Below are positions 6,975 through 57,094 of a stretch of 64,000 bases of DNA, one piece after another (positions within the stretch are counted from its first letter, which is position 1; every line of letters begins with the position of its first letter). This stretch comes from Periplaneta americana (Eukaryota > Arthropoda > Insecta > Blattodea > Blattidae). Position numbers and translations under genes: made by a program. The notes under the pieces are model-generated. The model was not told where the DNA came from and searched no databases. It saw nothing but the letters and a program-made list of their open reading frames with translations. The DNA lies in contig NC_091118.1 of NCBI RefSeq assembly GCF_040183065.1, forward strand, positions 210,101,529-210,165,528, given 5' to 3'.

Positions 6975-7223
6975 TTTTAGTAGGTTATTTTACGACGCTT
7001 TATCAACATCTTAGATTATTTAGCGTCTGAATGAGATGAAGGTGATGATGCCGGTGAAATGAGTCCGGGGTCCAGCACCCAAAGTTACCCAGCATTTGCT
7101 CATATTGGGTTGAGAGAAAACCCCGGAAAAAACCTCAACCAGGTAACTTGCCCCGACCGGGAATCGAACCCGGGCCACCTAATTTCGCAGCCATACGCGC
7201 TAACCGTTACTCCACAGGTGTGG
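6975..7223 (-). mobile_element. tRNA-derived SINE (family S1), full-length copy
   Basis: On the minus strand it begins with a tRNA-like head: A box in GTAACGGTTAGCGCG, B box GGTTCGATTCCC. The body contains GACCCCGGACTC and ends in the AGCGTCGTAAAATAACC tail. A 16-17 bp duplication (ACTTTTTCCGATTCAAT, one base shorter on the right) flanks it at 6958-6974 and 7224-7239. This is the best complete S1 copy and serves as reference for the copies at 2958, 14818 and 54388. Confidence 0.9.
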
Positions 7224-7440
7224 ACTTTTTCGATTCAATGATATAATCTTATGATTACGGTGAATTTTAAGTAGAGTGCGTTTCCCCTTAGACGCTCCTC
7301 GGAGTGATATCATCTGTACACCACTCATAATACTACATCACACCGATGCAGTTTTGGTTAATCCGATTGTAATAAAAATGATGTAGGCTATACATTGAAT
7401 TGGAGAGTGAGGGTGGATTGACGGAGAGAAATGGGCAACC

Positions 7441-13911: not shown

Positions 13912-14778
13912 CAGCGTGTTTAAAAAATATGGGGCATAATTTCAGGTATGTATTTCCCACATGTAGACAATCAAAATAGTTCATTACAACATGTGTTCGG
14001 AAATGCTTTATTTCCGAGTTATGTCCTTCACAACATTGAAATTCACCGGAACGTTTTTCTTTCCGTAGGTCGTTGCCGTTAAAGGAGACATTAAGAGGGC
14101 ACTATGACAGTTCATTCCGAGGCGAAGGTTACATTCAGTGTTGTGTAGGCGTTAGACTGTGCGACATGTATTCAAATCAAGAGCTGGCAGAGACACACTT
14201 CATGTACGGCAAGGCGGACGGCAATGCTGCGCTGGCTCGTCGTTTGTACCAGAAGAGGTACCCACAGCGACAATGTCCAGATCGGAAGACATTTGTACGT
14301 CTCCATTACCGTCTGTGCGAGTATGGAAAATTTAACTCTCCTGGTTTGGGAAGGGGACCAAGATCTACAACTCCAGAAGTACAGGAGGAGATTCTGGAGG
14401 CTGTGAACATGACTCCTTCTATCAGCACACGAAGGGTAGCGTTGCAAGTCAATGTTCCTCATACGGCTGTCTGGAGACTGTTGAAAGAGTATCAATTGTA
14501 TCCTTATCATTTGCAACGTGTACAGGCCCTGGGATCGTGTTCGCAGGTCAATGAGACATCGATGTGAGGTCTGTATTCAAGCAGGAGGTGGACATTTTAA
14601 ACATCTTCTGTAATGACAACGACCTGCGGAAAGAAAACCTTTCCGGTGAATTTCAGTGTTGTGAAGGCCATAACTCGGAAATAAAGCATTTCCGGACACA
14701 TGTTGTAATGAACTATTTTGATTGTCTACATGTGGAAAATACATACCTGAAATTATGCCTCGTATTTTAAACACCCTG
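13912..14778 (+). mobile_element. Tc1/mariner-superfamily element with about 168-bp inverted ends, internally deleted
   Basis: The ends CAG(C/G)GTGTTTAAAA... form inverted repeats of about 168 bp (13912-14080 and 14612-14778). They are flanked by TA (13910-13911, 14779-14780). The long imperfect arms share GGCATAATTTCAGGTATG and GTTCGGAAATG. Only the 5' part of a transposase gene lies between the arms, so the copy is non-autonomous. A single arm of a related element adjoins the satellite at 45425. Confidence 0.85.
14166..14567 (+). pseudogene. Truncated Tc1/mariner-like transposase: N-terminal DNA-binding region only
   Basis: From the ATG at 14166 the frame gives about 133 residues. The order is an N-terminal helix-turn-helix (YSNQELAETHFMYGKADGN, then RRLYQKRYPQ), a linker (GLGRGPRSTTPEVQEEILEAV), and a second helix-turn-helix (STRRVALQVNVPHTAVWRLL). 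A YPYHLQRVQAL motif follows. This layout matches a family of insect Tc1/mariner-related transposases whose paired N-terminal domains bind the inverted ends. The catalytic DDE/D domain is entirely missing; the frame ends before the right inverted arm. A related C-terminal piece lies at 44260-44502. Confidence 0.75.
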
Positions 14779-15211
14779 TATATGGGTCAATCTAGTGTTA
14801 CAGATGTGACTAATAATATTTTTTTATTTTAGTTGGTTATTTTACGACGCTTTATCAACATGTTAGATTATTTAGCGTCTGAATGAGATGAAGGTGATAA
14901 TGCCGGTGAAATGAGTCCGGGGTCCAACATCGAAAGTTACCCAGCATTTGCTCATATTGGGTTGAGGGAAAACCCCGGAAAAAACTTCAACCAGACAGGG
15001 CATCGTTGCGCCACACGGTCAGATAAAGTGCAGCATATAAAAAGGGTCCCTGTTTTGTGGGCATAGTTGAGCCCCGTTCCCTTCAGGTAGAGAAAAGGTC
15101 ATGGCATAGTTGCGCCCCGATGAAATAGGTAGAGAAAAAGACACTACGGGAACTCGAGTCTCGTAATCAACCAGCCTTATTGATTTCTTATGCGATTTAT
15201 ATTCATTATCG

Positions 15212-15340
15212 ATACCGTTAAAATGAACACCATGAAGTTGGCAGTATTTTATTAACTGTTTTTCTACTGTTTATGCAGTGATTATCAATCGCCTACCGTT
15301 AAAATGAACACCATGAAGTTGGCAGTACTTTATTAACTGA
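15212..15340 (+). repeat. Two-copy direct repeat inside the foldback-like element
   Basis: A segment of about 47 bp beginning TACCGTTAAAATGAACACC and ending TTTATTAACTG occurs at 15213-15259 and again at 15295-15340. The period is about 82 bp and only a few bases differ. Confidence 0.9.
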
Positions 15341-15443
15341 CATATTCAAATGAGTGAGCCGTTGGAATATGGGGCCTTAGCAGTCTTGACCTTTTATTAG
15401 TGATTTTCACACCGTCTGTGGCGTATAGTGAGGTTAATTTAAA

Positions 15444-15690
15444 ATGAATGTTAAGTTTAGTGAAAAGGGTGAAGAGTTAATAATTGATAATGGCTCTAAT
15501 TTTCAATTTTCGAAACCCTGTACCGTAGGGTTAAGATATCGATGTAGAAACAAAAAATGCAGTTCATTTATTGTGTGTGATCAATAAAAAAGTGTTATTG
15601 TAAATAGCAAAATTGATCATATGCTAGGCCTACCCGATTTCAATGCAGCTATCACTGTAATATTTTTAAGTAATTTATTTATTTTATGAC
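15444..15690 (+). pseudogene. FLYWCH-like zinc-finger relic in the foldback-like element
   Basis: From ATG at 15444 the frame runs 47 codons to TAA (15585-15587). It continues in the same frame without another stop for about 30 codons. The first part shows an aromatic strand (GSNFQFSKP), then GLRYRCRNKKCSSF with two cysteines four residues apart. After the stop, VNSKIDHM supplies a histidine. Aromatic-...-YRC-x4-C-...-H is the FLYWCH/WRKY-GCM1 zinc-finger pattern, found (from memory) in Mutator-like and Phantom transposases. No DDE domain follows. It is the only coding trace in the element. The length is too short for certainty. Confidence 0.5.
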
Positions 15691-15718
15691 AATCACTTTC
15701 GTGTGTACTATGCTCATC

Positions 15719-17097
15719 GGGGCGCAACTATGCCATGTCAATTCTGCTACCTGATTTCTTCGGGGCGCAACTATGCCATGTCCCATCTGCTACCTGATTT
15801 CTTCGGGGCGCAACTATGCCATGTCCCATCTGCTACCTGATTTCTTCGGGGCGCAACTATGCCATGTCCCATCTGCTTCCTAATTTCTTCGGGGCGCAAC
15901 TATGCCATGTCCCATCTGCTACCTGATTTCTTCGGGGCGCAACTATGCCATGTCCCATCTGCTACCTGATTTCTTACGGGCGCAACTATGCCATGTCCAT
16001 CCTGCTACCTGATTTCTTCGGGGCGCAACTATGCCATGTCCCATCTGCTACCTGATTTCTTCTGGACGCAACTATGCCATGTCCATCCTGCTACCTGATT
16101 TCTTCGGGGCGCAACTATGCCATGTCCATCCTGCTACCTGATTTCTTCGGGGCGCAACTATGCCATGTCCATTCTGCTACCTGATTTCTTCGGGGCGCAA
16201 CTATGCCATGTCCATCCTGCTTCCTAATTTCTTCGGGGCGCAACTATGCCATGTCCATCCTGCTACCTGATTTCTTCGGGGCGCAACTATGCCATGTCCC
16301 ATCTGCTACCTGATTTCTTCGGGGCGCAACTATGCCATGTCCCATCTGCTACCTGATTTCTTCGGGGCGCAACTATGCCATGTCCCATCTGCTTCCTAAT
16401 TTCTTCGGGGCGCAACTATGCCATGTCCCATCTGCTACCTGATTTCTTCGGGGCGCAACTATGCCATGTCCCATCTGCTACCTGATTTCTTCCGGGCGCA
16501 ACTATGCCATGTCCATCCTGCTACCTGATTTCTTCGGGGCGCAACTATGCCATGTCCCATCTGCTACCTGATTTCTTCGGGGCGCAACTATGCCATGTCC
16601 ATCCTGCTACCTGATTTCTTCGGGGCGCAACTATGCCATGTCCATTCTGCTACCTGATTTCTTCGGGGCGCAACTATGCCATGTCCATCCTGCTTCCTAA
16701 TTTCTTCAGGGCGCAACTATGCCATGTCCATCCTGCTACCTGATTTCTTCGGGGCGCAACTATGCCATGTCCCATCTGCTACCTGATTTCTTCGGGGCGC
16801 AACTATGCCATGTCCCATCTGCTACCTGATTTCTTCCGGGCGCAACTATGCCATGTCCATCCTGCTACCTGATTTCTTCGGGGCGCAACTATGCCATGTC
16901 CCATCTGCTACCTGATTTCTTCGGGACGCAACTATGCCATGTCCATCCTGCTACCTGATTTCTTCTGGGCGCAACTATGCCATGTCCCGTCTGCTACCTG
17001 ATTTCTTCGGGACGCAACTATGCCATGTCCCATCTGCTACCTGATTTCTTCGGGGCGCAATTATGCCATGCCTAGGCCTCCTAATTGACCGCGGGGC
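15719..17097 (+). repeat. 43-bp tandem array, about 32 monomers, right arm of the foldback-like element
   Basis: The monomer is GGGGCGCAACTATGCCATGT, then CCCATCTGCTACCTG, then ATTTCTTC. It has discrete variants (CCCATCTGCT, CCATCCTGCT, CCATTCTGCT, TGCTTCCTAA). The TGCTTCC variants at 15874 and 16390 are 516 bp apart (12 monomers). Those at 16219 and 16691 are about 473 bp apart (11 monomers). The order of variants in the first and second thirds matches, so the array grew partly by duplicating blocks of 11-12 monomers. This is not a CRISPR: there are no unique spacers. Confidence 0.95.
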
Positions 17098-17211
17098 GCA
17101 ACTATGCCATACCGAACCAGGTAACTTGTCCCGACCGGGAATCGAACCCGGGCCACCTGGTTTCGCGGCTAGACGCGCTAACCGTTACTCCACAGGTGTG
17201 GACCTAATAAT

Positions 17212-18395: not shown

Positions 18396-18934
18396 TCAGT
18401 GTTAAAATACTGTAAATAGTAAAGTCAGTGTTTATGAACGTGCTAATTAAAATATTGTTAATAGTAAAGTCAGTGTTCGTGAAAGTGCTAGTTAAAATAT
18501 TGTAAATAGTGAAGTCAGTGTTTGTGAGAGTGTTAGTTAAAATATTGTAAATAGTGAAGTCAGTGTTTGTGAAATTGCCATTAAAATATTTTAAATAGTG
18601 AGGTCAGTGTTTGTGAGAGTGTTAGTTGAAATATTGTAAATAGTAAAGTCAGTGTTTGTGAAAGTGTTAGTTAAATTATTGTAAATAGTAAAGTCAGTGT
18701 TTGTGAGTGTGTTAGTTAAAATATTGTAAATAGTAAAGTCAGTGTTTGTTAAAGTGTTAGTTAAAATATTGTAAATAGTAAAGTTAGTGTTTGTGAAATG
18801 TTAGTTAAAATAATGTAAATAGTAAAGTCAGTGTTTATTAATGTATTAGTTAAATATTATAAATATTAATGCCAGTGTTTATGAAAGTGCTAGTTAAAAT
18901 ATTGTAAATGGTAAAGTCAGTGTTTGTGAAAGTC
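18396..18934 (+). repeat. 45-bp minisatellite, left segment
   Basis: About 12 units of TGTAAATAGTAAAGTCAGTG followed by TTTGTGAAAGTGTTAGTTAA and AATAT. They carry scattered substitutions (GTGAAGTC against GTAAAGTC, GAGAGTG against GAAAGTG). The array is interrupted by a LINE and continues at 19480. Confidence 0.95.
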
Positions 18935-19479
18935 ATCATCATCATAATAAACTTCAAGGTTTGGGAATAATGACCCGTTCCGTCTCCAGGACTTATCTGA
19001 TCTCTCCAGTGTTTTCTCGGTCTTCCAGGTGATCTTCGTCCTACTGGTTTGTATGTCCACATTCTTATTGGTAGTCGTCCGTCGTCCATTCCTTCAACGT
19101 GTCTTAGCCAATTCAACCTATAATTCTCGATTTTGTCTGTTATGCGCTCAACGTTTAATTGTTTACGGATATCTTCGTTTCAAATATGATCTAATAGTGT
19201 GTGTCCCGTTAAAGGTCTAAGGATACGCATCTCAGCGGCTTCTAGTTTTCTTTCCTGTCTTTTAATGAGGGTCCACGTTTCCGCACCATACACCAAAATT
19301 GGTACAGCTAATGTTTTATAAAATTTTAATATCGTGTCCACTCTAGCCTTTTTAAGTAATGTGCGTTTAATTGTTCCTACCATCTTTTGGAACTTCAGAA
19401 TTTTATTCTCTGCATCACATGATTCTATAAATGAAAGGTTGCAACCCAGGTAATTGAAGGTGTTAGTTTGTTCCAAAGT
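18935..19479 (-). pseudogene. LINE family C, 3' end, inserted in the 45-bp minisatellite
   Basis: Minus-strand motifs in order are NYLGCNLSFIE, KARVDTILKFYKTLAVPILV, YGAETWTLIKRQERKLEAAEMRILR in part, GHTLLDH, then after a frameshift HVEGMDDGRLPIRMW and GRRSPGRPRKHWRDQI. These are thumb-side and C-terminal signatures of a non-LTR reverse transcriptase ORF. The palm and endonuclease are absent. Flanking array sequence GTGTTTGT(G)AAAGT is repeated on both sides and is the likely target duplication. The 3' end is a short (CAT)n-like tail. A related copy lies at 50881-51327. Confidence 0.8.
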
Positions 19480-19727
19480 GTTTGTAAAGTGTTAGTTAAA
19501 ATATTATAAATAGTAAAGTCAGTGTTTGTGAAAGTGTTAGTTAAAATATTGTAAAAGTAAAGTCAGTGTTTGTGAAAAAGTGTTAGCTAAATATTGTAAA
19601 TAGTAAAGTCAGTGTTTGTGAAAGTGTTAGTTAAATATTATAAATAGTAAAATCAGTGTTTGTGAAAGTTTTAGATTACTATTTACAATATTTAACTAAC
19701 ACTTTCACAAACATCTGACTTGTAAAT
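19480..19727 (+). repeat. 45-bp minisatellite, right segment ending in an inverted unit
   Basis: Four to five direct units, then at about 19676 the array switches strand: the last unit (TTACTATTTACAATATTTAA ... CACTTTCACAAACATCTGAC) is the reverse complement of the monomer. The terminal pair therefore forms a hairpin of about 45 bp per arm with almost no loop. Confidence 0.9.
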
Positions 19728-45574: not shown

Positions 45575-48480
45575 CCGTGACACTGACTGGTCTTGTCGAT
45601 TATTGTAACAGATTGGTGTTGCCGATTATGGTAATTGATTGGTGTTGCCGATTAAGACACTGACTGGTCTTGTCAATCATTGTAACATATTGGTGTTGCC
45701 GATTATGGTAAGTGATTGGTGTTGCCGATTAAGACACTGACTGGTCTTGTCGATTATTGTAACATATTGGTGTTGCCGATTATGGTAATTGATTGGTGTT
45801 GCCGATTAAGACACTGACTGGTCTTGTCAATCATTGTAACATATTGCTGTTGCCGATTATGGTAAGTGATTGGTGTTGCCGATTAAGACACTGACTGTTC
45901 TTGTCGATTATTGTAACATATTGGTGTTGCCGATTATGGTAAGTGATTGGTGTTGCCGATTAAGACACTGACTGGTCTTGTCAATCATTGTAACATATTG
46001 GTGTTGCCGATTATGGTAATTGATTGGTGTTGCCGATTAAGACACTGACTGGTCTTGTCGATTATTGTAACAGATTGGTGTTGCTGATTATGGTAACTGA
46101 TTGGTGTTGCCGATTAAGACACTGACTGGTCTTGTCGATTATTGTAACTGACTGATGTTGCCGATTACGGTAACTGATTGATGTAGCCGAATATGAAACT
46201 GACTGGTCTTGTCGATTATTGTAACTGACTGTTGTTGCCGATTACGGTAACTGATTGATGTAGCCGAATATGAAACTGACTGGTCTTGTCGATTATAGTA
46301 ACTGATTGGTGTTGTCGATTATTGTAACTGATTGGTGTTGCCGATTAAGACACTGACTGGTCTTGTCGATTATTGTAACTGACTGATGTTGCCGATTACG
46401 GTAACTGATTGATGTAGCCGAATATGAAACTGACTGGTCTTGTCGATTATAGTAACTGATTGGTGTTGTCGATTATTGTAACTGATTGGTGTTGCCGATT
46501 AAGACACTGACTTGTCTTCTCGATTATTGTAACTGATTGGTGTTGCTGATTGTTGTAACTGACTGGTGTTGCCGATTACGGTAACTGATTGATGTAGCCG
46601 AATATGAAACTGACTGGTCTTGTCGATTATAGTAACTGATTGGTGTTGTCGATTGTTGGAACTGATTGGTGTTGCCGATTAAGACACTGACTTGTCTTCT
46701 AGATTATTGTAACTGGTTGGTGTTGCTGATTGTTGTAATTGATTGGTGTTGCCGATTATTGTAACTGACTGATGTTGCCGATTACGGTAACTGATTGATG
46801 TAGCCGAATATGAAACTGACTGGTCTTGTCGATTATAGTAACTGATTGGTGTTGTCGATTATTGTAACTGATTGGTGTTGCCGATTAAGACACTGACTTG
46901 TCTTCTCGATTATTGTAACTGATTGGTGTTGCTGATTGTTGTAACTGACTGGTGTTGCCGATTACGGTAACTGATTGATGTAGCCGAATATGAAACTGAC
47001 TGGTCTTGTCGATTATAGTAACTGATTGGTGTTGTCGATTGTTGTAACTGATTGGTGTTGCCGATTAAGACACTGACTTGTCTTCTCGATTATTGTAACT
47101 GATTGGTGTTGCTGATTGTTGTAACTGACTGGTGTTGCCGATTACGGTAACTGATTGATGTAGCCGAATATGAAACTGACTGGTCTTGTCGATTATAGTA
47201 ACTGATTGGTGTTGTCGATTGTTGGAACTGATTGGTGTTGCCGATTAAGACACTGACTTGTCTTCTCGATTATTGTAACTGATTGGTGTTGCTGATTGTT
47301 GTAATTGATTGGTGTTGCCGATTATTGTAACTGACTGATGTTGCCGATTACGGTAACTGATTGATGTAGCCGAATATGAAACTGACTGGTCTTGTCGATT
47401 ATAGTAACTGATTGGTGTTGTCGATTATTGTAACTGATTGGTGTTGCCGATTAAGACACTGACTTGTCTTCTCGATTATTGTAACTGATTGGTGTTGCTG
47501 ATTGTTGTAACTGACTGGTGTTGCCGATTACGGTAACTGATTGATGTAGCCGAATATGAAACTGACTGGTCTTGTCGATTATAGTAACTGATTGGTGTTG
47601 TCGATTGTTGTAACTGATTGGTGTTGCCGATTAAGACACTGACTTGTCTTCTCGATTATTGTAACTGATTGGTGTTGCTGATTGTTGTAACTGACTGGTG
47701 TTGCCGATTACGGTAACTGATTGATGTAGCCGAATATGAAACTGACTGGTCTTGTCGATTATAGTAACTGATTGGTGTTGTCGATTGTTGGAACTGATTG
47801 GTGTTGCTGATTAAGACACTGACTTGTCTTCTCGATTATTGTAACTGATTGGTGTTGCTGATTGTTGTAATTGATTGGTGTTGCCGATTATTGTAACTGA
47901 CTGATGTTGCCGATTACGGTAACTGATTGATGTAGCCGAATATGAAACTGACTGGTCTTGTCGATTATAGTAACTGATTGGTGTTGTCGATTGTTGTAAC
48001 TGATTGGTGTTGCCGATTAAGACACTGACTTGTCTTCTCGATTATTGTAACTGATTGGTGTTGCTGATTGTTGTAACTGACTGGTGTTGCCGATTACGGT
48101 AACTGATTGATGTAGCCGAATATGAAACTGACTGGTCTTGTCGATTATAGTAACTGATTGGTGTTGTCGATTGTTGGAACTGATTGGTGTTGCCGATTAA
48201 GACACTGACTTGTCTTCTCGATTATTGTAACTGATTGGTGTTGCTGATTGTTGTAATTGATTGGTCTTGCCGATTATGGTAACTGATTGATGCTGCCGAT
48301 TGTTGTAACTGATTGGTGTTGCCAATTATGATACTGTCTGGTCTTGATAATTATGTTAATATTTTTGGTTCTGTAGATTATAGCAATGTTTGGTAGTGCT
48401 GATTGTGTCAATAATTAGTGTTGCCGATTATGGCAATGTCTGGTGTTGTCGGATACAGAAATATTTGGTGGTGGGAATTA
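45575..48480 (+). repeat. Satellite array, 25-26 bp monomer, multi-tier higher-order repeats
   Basis: About 2.9 kb of monomers of the type GATTATGGTAACTGATTGGT plus GTTGCC. Left part (45575-46140): three-monomer blocks of 77 bp; GATTAAGACAC recurs at 45650, 45727, 45804, 45881, 45958, 46035 and 46112. Alternating TCAATCATTG/TCGATTATTG for most of this part gives a 154-bp period. Right part: TAGCCGAATATG recurs at 46595, 46801, 46981, 47161, 47367, 47547, 47727, 47933 and 48113, that is 206, 180, 180, 206, 180, 180, 206, 180 bp, a 566-bp super-repeat. Monomers decay after 48290. No coding and no spacers, so not CRISPR. Confidence 0.95.
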
Positions 48481-54771: not shown

Positions 54772-54984
54772 TAGATTATTTAGCGTCTGAATGAGATGAA
54801 GGTGATAATGCCGGTGAAATGAGTCGGGGGTCCAGCACCGAAAGTTACCCAGCATTTGCTCATATTGGGTTTACGGAAAACCACGGAAAAAACCTCAACC
54901 AGGTAACTTGCCCCGACCGGGAATCGAACCCGGGTCACCTGGTTTCGCGGTCAGACGCGCTAACCGTTACTTCACAGGTGTGGA

Positions 54985-55300
54985 CCAGATAGATATATAT
55001 ATTCAGACAAATGGGCAGACAATTCGACCGGTAGGAATAATCAAATGTAGATATGCAGACAGATGAATGGAACGATAATAGAAAGATGATATAGAGACAG
55101 ATCAATTGACAAGATTAATAGGGGCAGATATGTGGATGGACATATATAGACAAGAGAAGTTGATGGAGAGGTGCAGACAACCAAATAGACTAACAAAGAG
55201 TGTGACACAAATATAGATGAGTAGATAGCCTGAACAGGCCGACACACAGGCACCGAATAGACACACACTCATAGAGGTAGAGGATTAAAGATAATGAACA
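54985..55300. repeat. Degenerate GATA/GACA-rich tract, part 3
   Basis: Right-hand continuation of the tract (CAGATAGATATA, AGACAGATGAATGG, AGATGAGTAGATAG). Confidence 0.7.
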
Positions 55301-56242
55301 CATATACAGGGACATCATTTTATTTTTAGTATCATTTTTAATATTAACCTAGTTATACCTTTGGATTATTGTTTCAGAGCCGGAAACACAGTTTGCTAAC
55401 CCGTTCCACGATTGAAGTTCGATGATTCTGGCGTAAAATACAAACACATCACTTTATTAAGTATAGGAGAGAAGGAAAGTAGTTCATCCATTTACGTAAA
55501 CTAGGAGATATCGTAATTTTGAATTTTATAATTTTCATTAGGTTTTTGTTTAACCAAAATACAGTACAGTATTAACAATAACTGATTTTACTCACGAACT
55601 GAGTAAAGTTATCCATTCGGACGTATTCATTATGCAGTGTATATTATACTGTCTACAGCACATTAGCGTACAATATAGAGAATGAAGTTAAATTTAAAAA
55701 TAATCATAATATGGATATTTAAACACTTTTTTAAAATGGTGGCCTTTCATTTAGATACAGTGTTCAGTTCTTTTGTGCATATTATCGCACTATAGACTAA
55801 TTCCAATTACTAGTAACTCATGTTGAAATAATTCTATACCTATTATATAAAAGAGTACCTTACGTACTGTAAATTCAATCGCACAAATAACATTACTCGG
55901 ACATGCTATCTACTGTCCGTCCAAGTGGTTATGTCGCAGGATCGTAGAAAGGGAGAAAATCACGTGACAGTTAATTATTTTGTTTAAGTTATTTTAAACA
56001 GTTGCGGGTGAGGGAAATCGGGATGCGACGTAGGCAAACGGACGACAGAACCTGTGCTAAAATATGATTCAAAATTGAAAGCACTTTCGTCACTGGAAAA
56101 CGCGGACATATTTCTGGAACATACTATACTAACTATCTCAATATTATATATATTTTGATGTACCGAAGTACATATGATATTTCCATGCAGATATTCTGCG
56201 TCATCATATGATGAAAGAGTGATGGAGCGGAGAAAAATTCTC

Positions 56243-56313
56243 TCCGGCGCCGGGATTTGAACCCGGGTTTTCAGCTCTACATGCTGATGCTTTATCCACT
56301 AAGCCACGCCGGA
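56243..56313 (-). other. tRNA-like sequence (anticodon loop ATGTAGA), repeat-embedded
   Basis: Folds as a 71-nt cloverleaf on the minus strand: acceptor TCCGGCG/CGCCGGA (7 pairs), D stem GCTT/AAGC, anticodon stem TCAGC/GCTGA with GTA in the anticodon position, T stem CCGGG/CCCGG with loop TTCAAAT. It lies inside a repeat and is duplicated in inverted form nearby, so I treat it as a SINE-type promoter head rather than a tyrosine tRNA gene. Confidence 0.7.
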
Positions 56314-56825: not shown

Positions 56826-56896
56826 TCCGGCGTGGCTTAGTGGATAAAGCATCAGCACGTAGAGCTGAAAACCCGGGTTCAAATCCCGGCACCGGA
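56826..56896 (+). other. tRNA-like sequence, mirror copy
   Basis: Same cloverleaf on the plus strand with two key changes: the base before the anticodon is C instead of the universal T, and one acceptor pair is broken (TCCGGCG against CACCGGA). Both point to a non-functional repeat head. Confidence 0.7.
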
Positions 56897-57094
56897 GAGA
56901 ATTTTTCTCCGTTCCATCACTCTTTTATCTCAATATTGTTTGCGTTTACTACGACCTTACGACTTGGACTGTATACGCTTGGTTCTGTGTGGCGAACAGT
57001 TGGAAGTTCACTAGTAGAGGGGGTGGGAGTGAAGTACATTAAAAAAACTCAGGTACAATAAAAATTGAAGTAAAAATAAAATGATTTCCCTGTA

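Follow-up and report, generated by a model that had tools for sequence, protein, structure and literature searches.

A probable non-autonomous FLYWCH Mutator-like element with foldback arms in the genome of Periplaneta americana

A mobile element was found at positions 14995-17114 of a 64,000-nucleotide stretch of the genome of the cockroach Periplaneta americana (hereafter the window), where it sits within a SINE. Its sequence and its relatives make it very probable that this element arose by deletion from a FLYWCH (Phantom-type) Mutator-like transposon (MULE) with foldback arms and is non-autonomous and MITE-like. We observed dispersed copies of the element, their ends and target duplications, a right array of variable length, homology to the FLYWCH zinc finger and one relative with similar arms. 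The original prediction, a foldback-like element of a Mutator-like lineage, is thus supported by the arms, by the duplications and by FLYWCH-MULE homology. The features of the element and of its host SINE are as follows (window coordinates).

14821-14994, minus strand: part of the SINE left of the insertion; its start is query-defined and the SINE may extend further; it ends with the target copy AACCAG at 14989-14994
14995-17114, plus strand: whole element, probable non-autonomous MULE/foldback copy; ends compared with 20 other copies
14999-15012, plus strand: left terminal motif GGCATCGTTGCGCC, common to sister copies
15060-15145, plus strand: left arm of two 43-bp monomers, which have their motifs at 15060 and 15103 and run in inverse orientation to the right array, from the motif search
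15213-15339, plus strand: internal direct repeat (15213-15258 and 15294-15339, 81-bp spacing), the number of which varies between elements
15444-15584, plus strand: remnant frame of 47 residues, N-terminal FLYWCH zinc finger of a MULE transposase, with TAA at 15585-15587, from Pfam and relatives
15719-17051, plus strand: right arm, 31 direct 43-bp monomers, from TRF and the motif search
17052-17092, plus strand: last but one unit of the right arm, 41 bp long and with a differing tail; a similar unit occurs in sister copies
17093-17114, plus strand: right terminal motif, ending GCCATACCG, from the end comparison and motif count
17115-17203, minus strand: part of the SINE right of the insertion, beginning with the target copy AACCAG(GT)

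The element is bounded by AACCAG on both sides (14989-14994 and 17115-17120), while a third AACCAG at 15169 is internal to the element and is not a junction. Alignment to two unbroken SINE copies of the window (6975-7225 and 54772-55003) shows that the halves of the interrupted SINE have precisely AACCAG in common where the insertion took place. In this sequence comparison the unbroken copies serve as a paralogous empty site, and they confirm the predicted insertion into a SINE with AACCAG on either side. The matching copies at 6975-7142 and 54772-54902 (95% identical) run on into the right part, and the SINE copies found in L010, L012, L015, L016 and L017 (85-93%) likewise continue into it; the SINE matches in L013 and L027 were weak. 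One SINE family thus occupies 6975-7225, 14821-17203 and 54772-55003, with a tRNA-like head recognised by eye on the minus strand; ARAGORN called no tRNA in the head of the right SINE part. In the alignment of copies, the family consensus has the left end GGGCAGGGCATAGTTGCGCC and the right end ...GGCGCAACTATGCCATACCG. The consensus begins GGGCAGGGCATAG, relative to which the left junction of the window copy is damaged.

The target duplication had been given as 6 bp, and six bases as a family rule must be rejected, since the sister copies show mainly 8 bp and some 9 bp. Among 21 copies including that of the window, 8 bp with at most one mismatch were found in 10 (6 exact), an exact 9 bp in 3 and an exact 7 bp in 1; wrongly paired flanks, used as a control, reached the 8-bp level in 1 of 420 cases and the 9-bp level in 0 of 420. 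The limits were missed by L011 (which matches at 6 of 8 positions), L013, L014, L019, L025, L026 and the window copy. Five of six further copies had an exact 8 bp, and the sixth, L066, matched at 6 of 8. Altogether, and leaving the window copy aside, a duplication of 7-9 bp, usually 8, was present in 19 of 26 copies, and 7 had none within the limits. In terms of the 8-10 bp duplication of MULEs, 15 of these 26 copies had 8 bp (at most one mismatch) and 3 had an exact 9 bp. In the window, the right flank reads AACCAGGT, and the left junction reads AACCAG-ACAGGG where AACCAGGT-GGGCAGGG is expected. On this sequence comparison, AACCAG most likely stands for an 8-bp duplication, AACCAGGT, the left junction of which has been damaged; if one base was substituted there and about four were lost, the apparent 6 bp, most likely a local accident, would be explained.

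Both arms are built from one motif. With at most 2 mismatches, GGCATmGTTGCGCC occurs on the left side at 14999, 15060 and 15103, and its reverse complement occurs 33 times between 15721 and 17095; of the right-side motifs, 31 belong to 43-bp units, one to a 41-bp unit and one to the end. When the motif was taken in a 19-base form, it gave 35 matches in the window (at most 3 mismatches) vs 0 in 100 shuffles, and TRF reported 31.5 copies of a 43-bp unit with 93% matches. The motif search therefore bears out the inverted end motif and the two inverted 43-bp monomers on the left. The array of about 32 direct monomers described for the right side is also present, except that the last unit before the end is a distinct one of 41 bp, leaving 31 of 43 bp. 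Other tandem arrays lie in the window: about 1.3 kb or more to the right of the element there are two arrays of a 44-45 bp unit (18401-18933 and 19477-19674), seemingly unrelated to it in sequence, and a 2.7-kb minisatellite at 45578-48346 has nested periods of 77, 180 and 386 bp, forming a higher-order array.

We searched the whole genome, 3,231,669,367 bases in 91 contigs; the assembly, PAMFEO1_priV1, is described as 3.23 Gb in 91 scaffolds with an N50 of 188.1 Mb (PMC12774602). First-look candidates numbered 1564 with the left-end query, 1944 with the core query and 2024 with the FLYWCH-fragment query. The scored matches were 92-100% identical for the left end (best 40 of 1564), 96-100% for the core (best 40 of 1944) and 87-100% for the FLYWCH fragment (best 150 of 2024). 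Other copies sharing both ends were recovered, which excludes the case, foreseen in the original prediction, that no such copy exists. With about 2,000 candidates, the family appears to be abundant. Divergence from the consensus was 1.3-4.2% across 21 aligned copies (20 and the window copy), a low estimate because the copies were best matches and the spread is understated; these values suggest a fairly young family. The copies studied comprised 20 chosen via the left end, 6 chosen via the core and the window copy, 27 in total.

Across these 27 elements, the motif was present in 2-4 copies in the left arm (the end motif included) and in 3-45 inverted copies in the right arm, so that inverted tandem-repeat arms of varying number, the hallmark of foldback elements, were found in all 27. 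The left arm had 3 motifs in 22 copies, 4 in 4 copies and 2 only in L026, the end motif of which is degraded. The right arm had only 3-5 motifs in 16 of the 27 copies and at least 9 in 9 of them. Expansion of the right arm far beyond the left, as predicted for the window copy, is thus seen in many other copies. The first 20 copies were chosen by a left-end query, which biases them toward intact left arms. The core-chosen copies are a fairer sample (n=6), with 3-4 motifs on the left and 4, 5, 6, 6, 9 and 20 on the right; one extra left motif was present in 4 of the 6 copies selected by this internal query. At C2:33538202-33538615 the left end was matched three times, about 104 bp apart, and such repeated matches at one place suggest that growth of the left arm probably occurs too. 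For these reasons, namely the selection bias, this locus and the extra motif in 4 of 6 core copies, we dropped as an absolute the statement that the left arm is unable to expand. The internal 81-bp-spaced repeat also varies, with up to about six copies in L011.

Among the 18 monomer variants seen at least twice, 11 were private to a single copy, whereas shuffling gave 1.05 on average and never more than 5, so that growth of the arrays has been local. The mean monomer distance was 2.20 per 43 within and 2.28 per 43 between six long arrays, inside the shuffle range; a lower mean distance within than between arrays was accordingly rejected, and only the private-variant count lies beyond the shuffle range. 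In L023, the 41-bp penultimate unit is repeated along with 43-bp units in the pattern Q B J Q B J Q, which indicates that the end-proximal unit can take part in amplification.

Between the arms, the frame at 15444-15584 shows the pattern YRC-x4-C. The Pfam FLYWCH profile matched it with an E value of 0.019, and masking the stop gave 0.0025 (18.4 bits), still below the cut-off of 23.6; this profile was outscored by Megourin (0.0018 and 0.0012), which was likewise below its own cut-off. PHD was not among the Pfam families listed for this frame, in which only a transposase fragment is present. The FLYWCH assignment derives mainly from homology to the relatives described below, which is stronger than the weak Pfam match. 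The finger proposed in the original prediction was therefore retained for its YRC-x4-C pattern and its homology to MULE N termini, while its own Pfam match stayed below the cut-off with Megourin higher. Judged by these alignments, the short frame represents an N-terminal FLYWCH finger that is cut off by a stop and is homologous to the N termini of MULE transposases. An in-frame stop was present in all 150 scored copies (best 150 of 2024), the longest frame listed having 169 residues; no open-frame copy was found among these 150 FLYWCH-fragment candidates.

Of ten MULE loci examined in the same genome, six (L029 and L031-L035) form one family, and in four of these six a FLYWCH N terminus aligned to the window fragment (tblastn, E 4.5e-5 to 5e-4). 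An alignment of the window fragment with the N-terminal pieces of four relatives gave identities of 28-43%, two of the pieces being short (42 and 29 residues). In L033, FLYWCH (E 1.6e-7) and MULE (E 9.3e-15) occur in one frame, both over the Pfam cut-offs. The N-terminal regions of 19 further relatives included 5 that match the window fragment at E < 1e-3, the best being L059 with 45% over 42 residues. At the DNA level, L059 and L042 share a stretch that lies just within the beginning of the frame, window 15447-15475 (E 0.004 and 0.013; 86-88% over 26-29 bp). In the whole genome, first-look candidates numbered 3380 for FLYWCH domains and 1106 for MULE domains, and the best 150 of each were scored; there are several diverged FLYWCH-MULE families, with about 35-45% identity to L033.

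The MULE domain is present in the relatives sharing the FLYWCH N terminus and was not in the copies of the window family that were read. The search for relatives with a transposase, proposed earlier, thus succeeded in part: FLYWCH-MULE relatives exist, but no copy combining these arms with a complete transposase was found among the copies read or the 150 scored. For this reason the results speak only in part against a different transposase type, another case foreseen in the original prediction. The arm motif did not occur within the 2.4 kb of any of the ten first MULE loci, nor, bar one 3-mismatch match in L053, in the 19 N-terminal pieces, and the ends of the L039/L040 MULE family showed no clear duplication by eye. 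The arm repeat search in relatives covered L060 only, which lies where L042 does (C9:15074000-15078500). L060 is a decayed relative of L033 (E 1.9e-63, 44% over residues 33-330), and its MULE piece alone scores 21.4 bits, below the Pfam cut-off of 27.6. In its inverted arms a 16-bp motif recurs every 45 bp, with two copies on the left and three of opposite orientation on the right, a layout like that of the window element. A likeness of the repeat units themselves between the window element and the relatives (an AGTTGnnnCCC core) was rejected, the best matches being at chance level.

We propose that the derivative lost the catalytic part of the transposase but kept its two ends, the stretch that precedes the gene and the beginning of the gene, which encodes the FLYWCH finger. 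It would be mobilised in trans by a FLYWCH-MULE transposase, which would cut with a stagger of 8 (sometimes 9) bp. Most likely, the repeats of the motif GGCATAGTTGCGCC at the two ends form an array of predicted transposase binding sites, and binding-site repeats in both arms would also bring tandem-repeat instability. The right array may then grow and shrink locally, copy by copy, through slippage, unequal exchange or gap repair.

Several other origins were weighed. Drosophila FB elements have tandem-repeat inverted arms and a Mutator-like partner, NOF, and the same features here could indicate a direct FB relative with a NOF-type partner. Some foldback elements have been grouped with Mutator (PMC3169594); however, the relatives in the cockroach genome are FLYWCH-MULE transposases, the domain plan of Phantom as described in that paper. 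Descent from the FB/NOF lineage is thus improbable. If the element were instead a non-autonomous hAT (or Merlin) element and its FLYWCH stretch an unrelated captured sequence, the commonest duplication length of 8 bp would be explained, and so would the CAGGG within the left end, which is frequent in hAT ends. hAT elements have 8-bp duplications only and CAGG-type ends on both sides. We found an exact 9-bp duplication in 3 copies, a right end that reads CGGTATGG inward and not CAGGG, and a FLYWCH remnant homologous to MULE transposase N termini, and we consider a hAT origin very unlikely. Duplications of 8 or 9 bp are, moreover, found with the Muta MULEs of Aedes (PMC5225508).

A Rehavkus-type element, with a PHD-finger transposase and a minisatellite before the 3' end, has a slighter chance still: the minisatellite before the 3' TIR (PMC6446971) resembles the right arm here, but the finger matches FLYWCH, the Pfam families reported for this fragment do not include PHD, and Table 1 of the same paper also gives Phantom a 'mini-satellite after the transposase ORF (aphids)'. 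Finally, the long homogeneous array that dominates the window copy might be a minisatellite or satellite of separate origin that acquired copies of the ends later, and no transposon arm at all. This is the least credible of the alternatives, contradicted already by copies that share these ends and have target duplications but carry short arrays: the same motif lies in both ends and in the inverted left arm of sister copies, 19 of 26 sister copies have target duplications, and 16 of 27 have only 3-5 right motifs. The matches listed for an array query (best 40 of 124 candidates) fell in stretches of up to about 2.3 kb, and at least 3 places besides the window coincide with known copies of the element.

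For the preferred reading, a FLYWCH MULE derivative, the closest published kin by the descriptions in the cited parts of the literature are Tm1 and the Aedes Muta families (Phantom group), which match better than FB/NOF. Tm1 of Meloidogyne has foldback arms composed of short tandem units, the number of which varies and differs between the two ends, as well as a MITE-like majority, a FLYWCH and MULE partner (here the MULE is in relatives only) and 8-10 bp duplications (PMC3169594). Tm1 also has asymmetric end motifs outside the inverted repeat, CGGTTAA and CCTACCC (PMC3169594), compared with CGGTATG and GGGCAGG in the cockroach; when oriented, 4 of 7 and 6 of 7 positions agree, and over 10 bases at each end 14 of 20 agree, a level reached by 72 of 100,000 composition-keeping shuffles in this post hoc comparison. 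In contrast, its unit is 13-15 bp vs 43 in the cockroach, a same-armed partner is known for Tm1 and none was found here, and 61 elements were analysed vs about 2,000 cockroach candidates (PMC3169594). Muta1-14 of Aedes aegypti have 8-9 bp duplications and variable-repeat derivatives, with subterminal tandem repeats in 10 of 12 long-TIR families and a predicted N-terminal FLYWCH in 13 of 14, and Muta1 is a type 2 foldback element (PMC5225508). They differ in their repeats of 9-15 bp and in the activity of Muta1, which has full-length copies; one-sided arrays of the cockroach kind are not described in the part of that paper cited here (PMC5225508).

Phantom, group 20, has FLYWCH, SWIM or no finger and 8-10 bp duplications where given, and in aphids a minisatellite follows its transposase ORF; unlike here, the minisatellites of Phantom and Rehavkus are in coding elements, and Rehavkus has a PHD finger (PMC6446971). 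Tetris of Drosophila virilis is a non-autonomous foldback element with 8-10 bp duplications and arm units that expand to longer arrays, but its units are about 220 bp and its arrays reach 66 copies outside intact elements (PMC4079207). Tetris is without a conserved ORF, and its authors suggest Mutator from the duplication size and earlier suggestions (PMC4079207). An arthropod MULE survey reports complete elements in two Blattodea species, and Periplaneta is not named in its text as far as available (PMC13359780). According to the P. americana assembly paper, the DNA elements are mainly of the Tc1-Mariner and hAT types, and unclassified species-specific repeats account for 15% of the genome (PMC12774602); on the strength of this passage our family may belong to the unlabelled share. 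Our literature search, in a single source, returned no paper pairing cockroach with foldback and none that brings together P. americana, transposable elements, Mutator and a genome assembly, and among the 12 papers listed of 687 on Mutator, MITE or FLYWCH, with or without Periplaneta, no such family appeared in titles or abstract openings.

Two further features of the window were recorded. A 175-residue open frame at 14040-14567, just upstream of the SINE, presumably resembles the N terminus of a mariner-like transposase, and two predicted tRNA-Tyr(GTA) genes lie in opposite orientation about 500 bp apart (56242-56313, minus strand; 56826-56897, plus strand).

Because the combination of features is known, in the descriptions cited, from Tm1 and Muta, with a minisatellite in aphid Phantom and satellite-like expansion of arm repeats in Tetris, the cockroach family joins an established type. 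What is unusual in it is the 43-bp unit, the high copy number and the largely one-sided growth. A stronger reading, which we hold to be rather doubtful, is that of a foldback MULE with essentially one minisatellite-like arm, in which the right arm expands repeatedly and independently (3-45) while the left stays at 2-4 across about 2,000 recent insertions. If this were true, the one-sided growth would point to a polar, transposition- or repair-coupled array mechanism tied to the orientation of the element, and the genome would be a natural experiment on transposons seeding satellite DNA. Otherwise, the family extends a pattern known in mosquitoes, nematodes and aphids, and, being a large and young collection of insertions, it makes it possible to follow how tandem arrays grow within an arm of a transposon.
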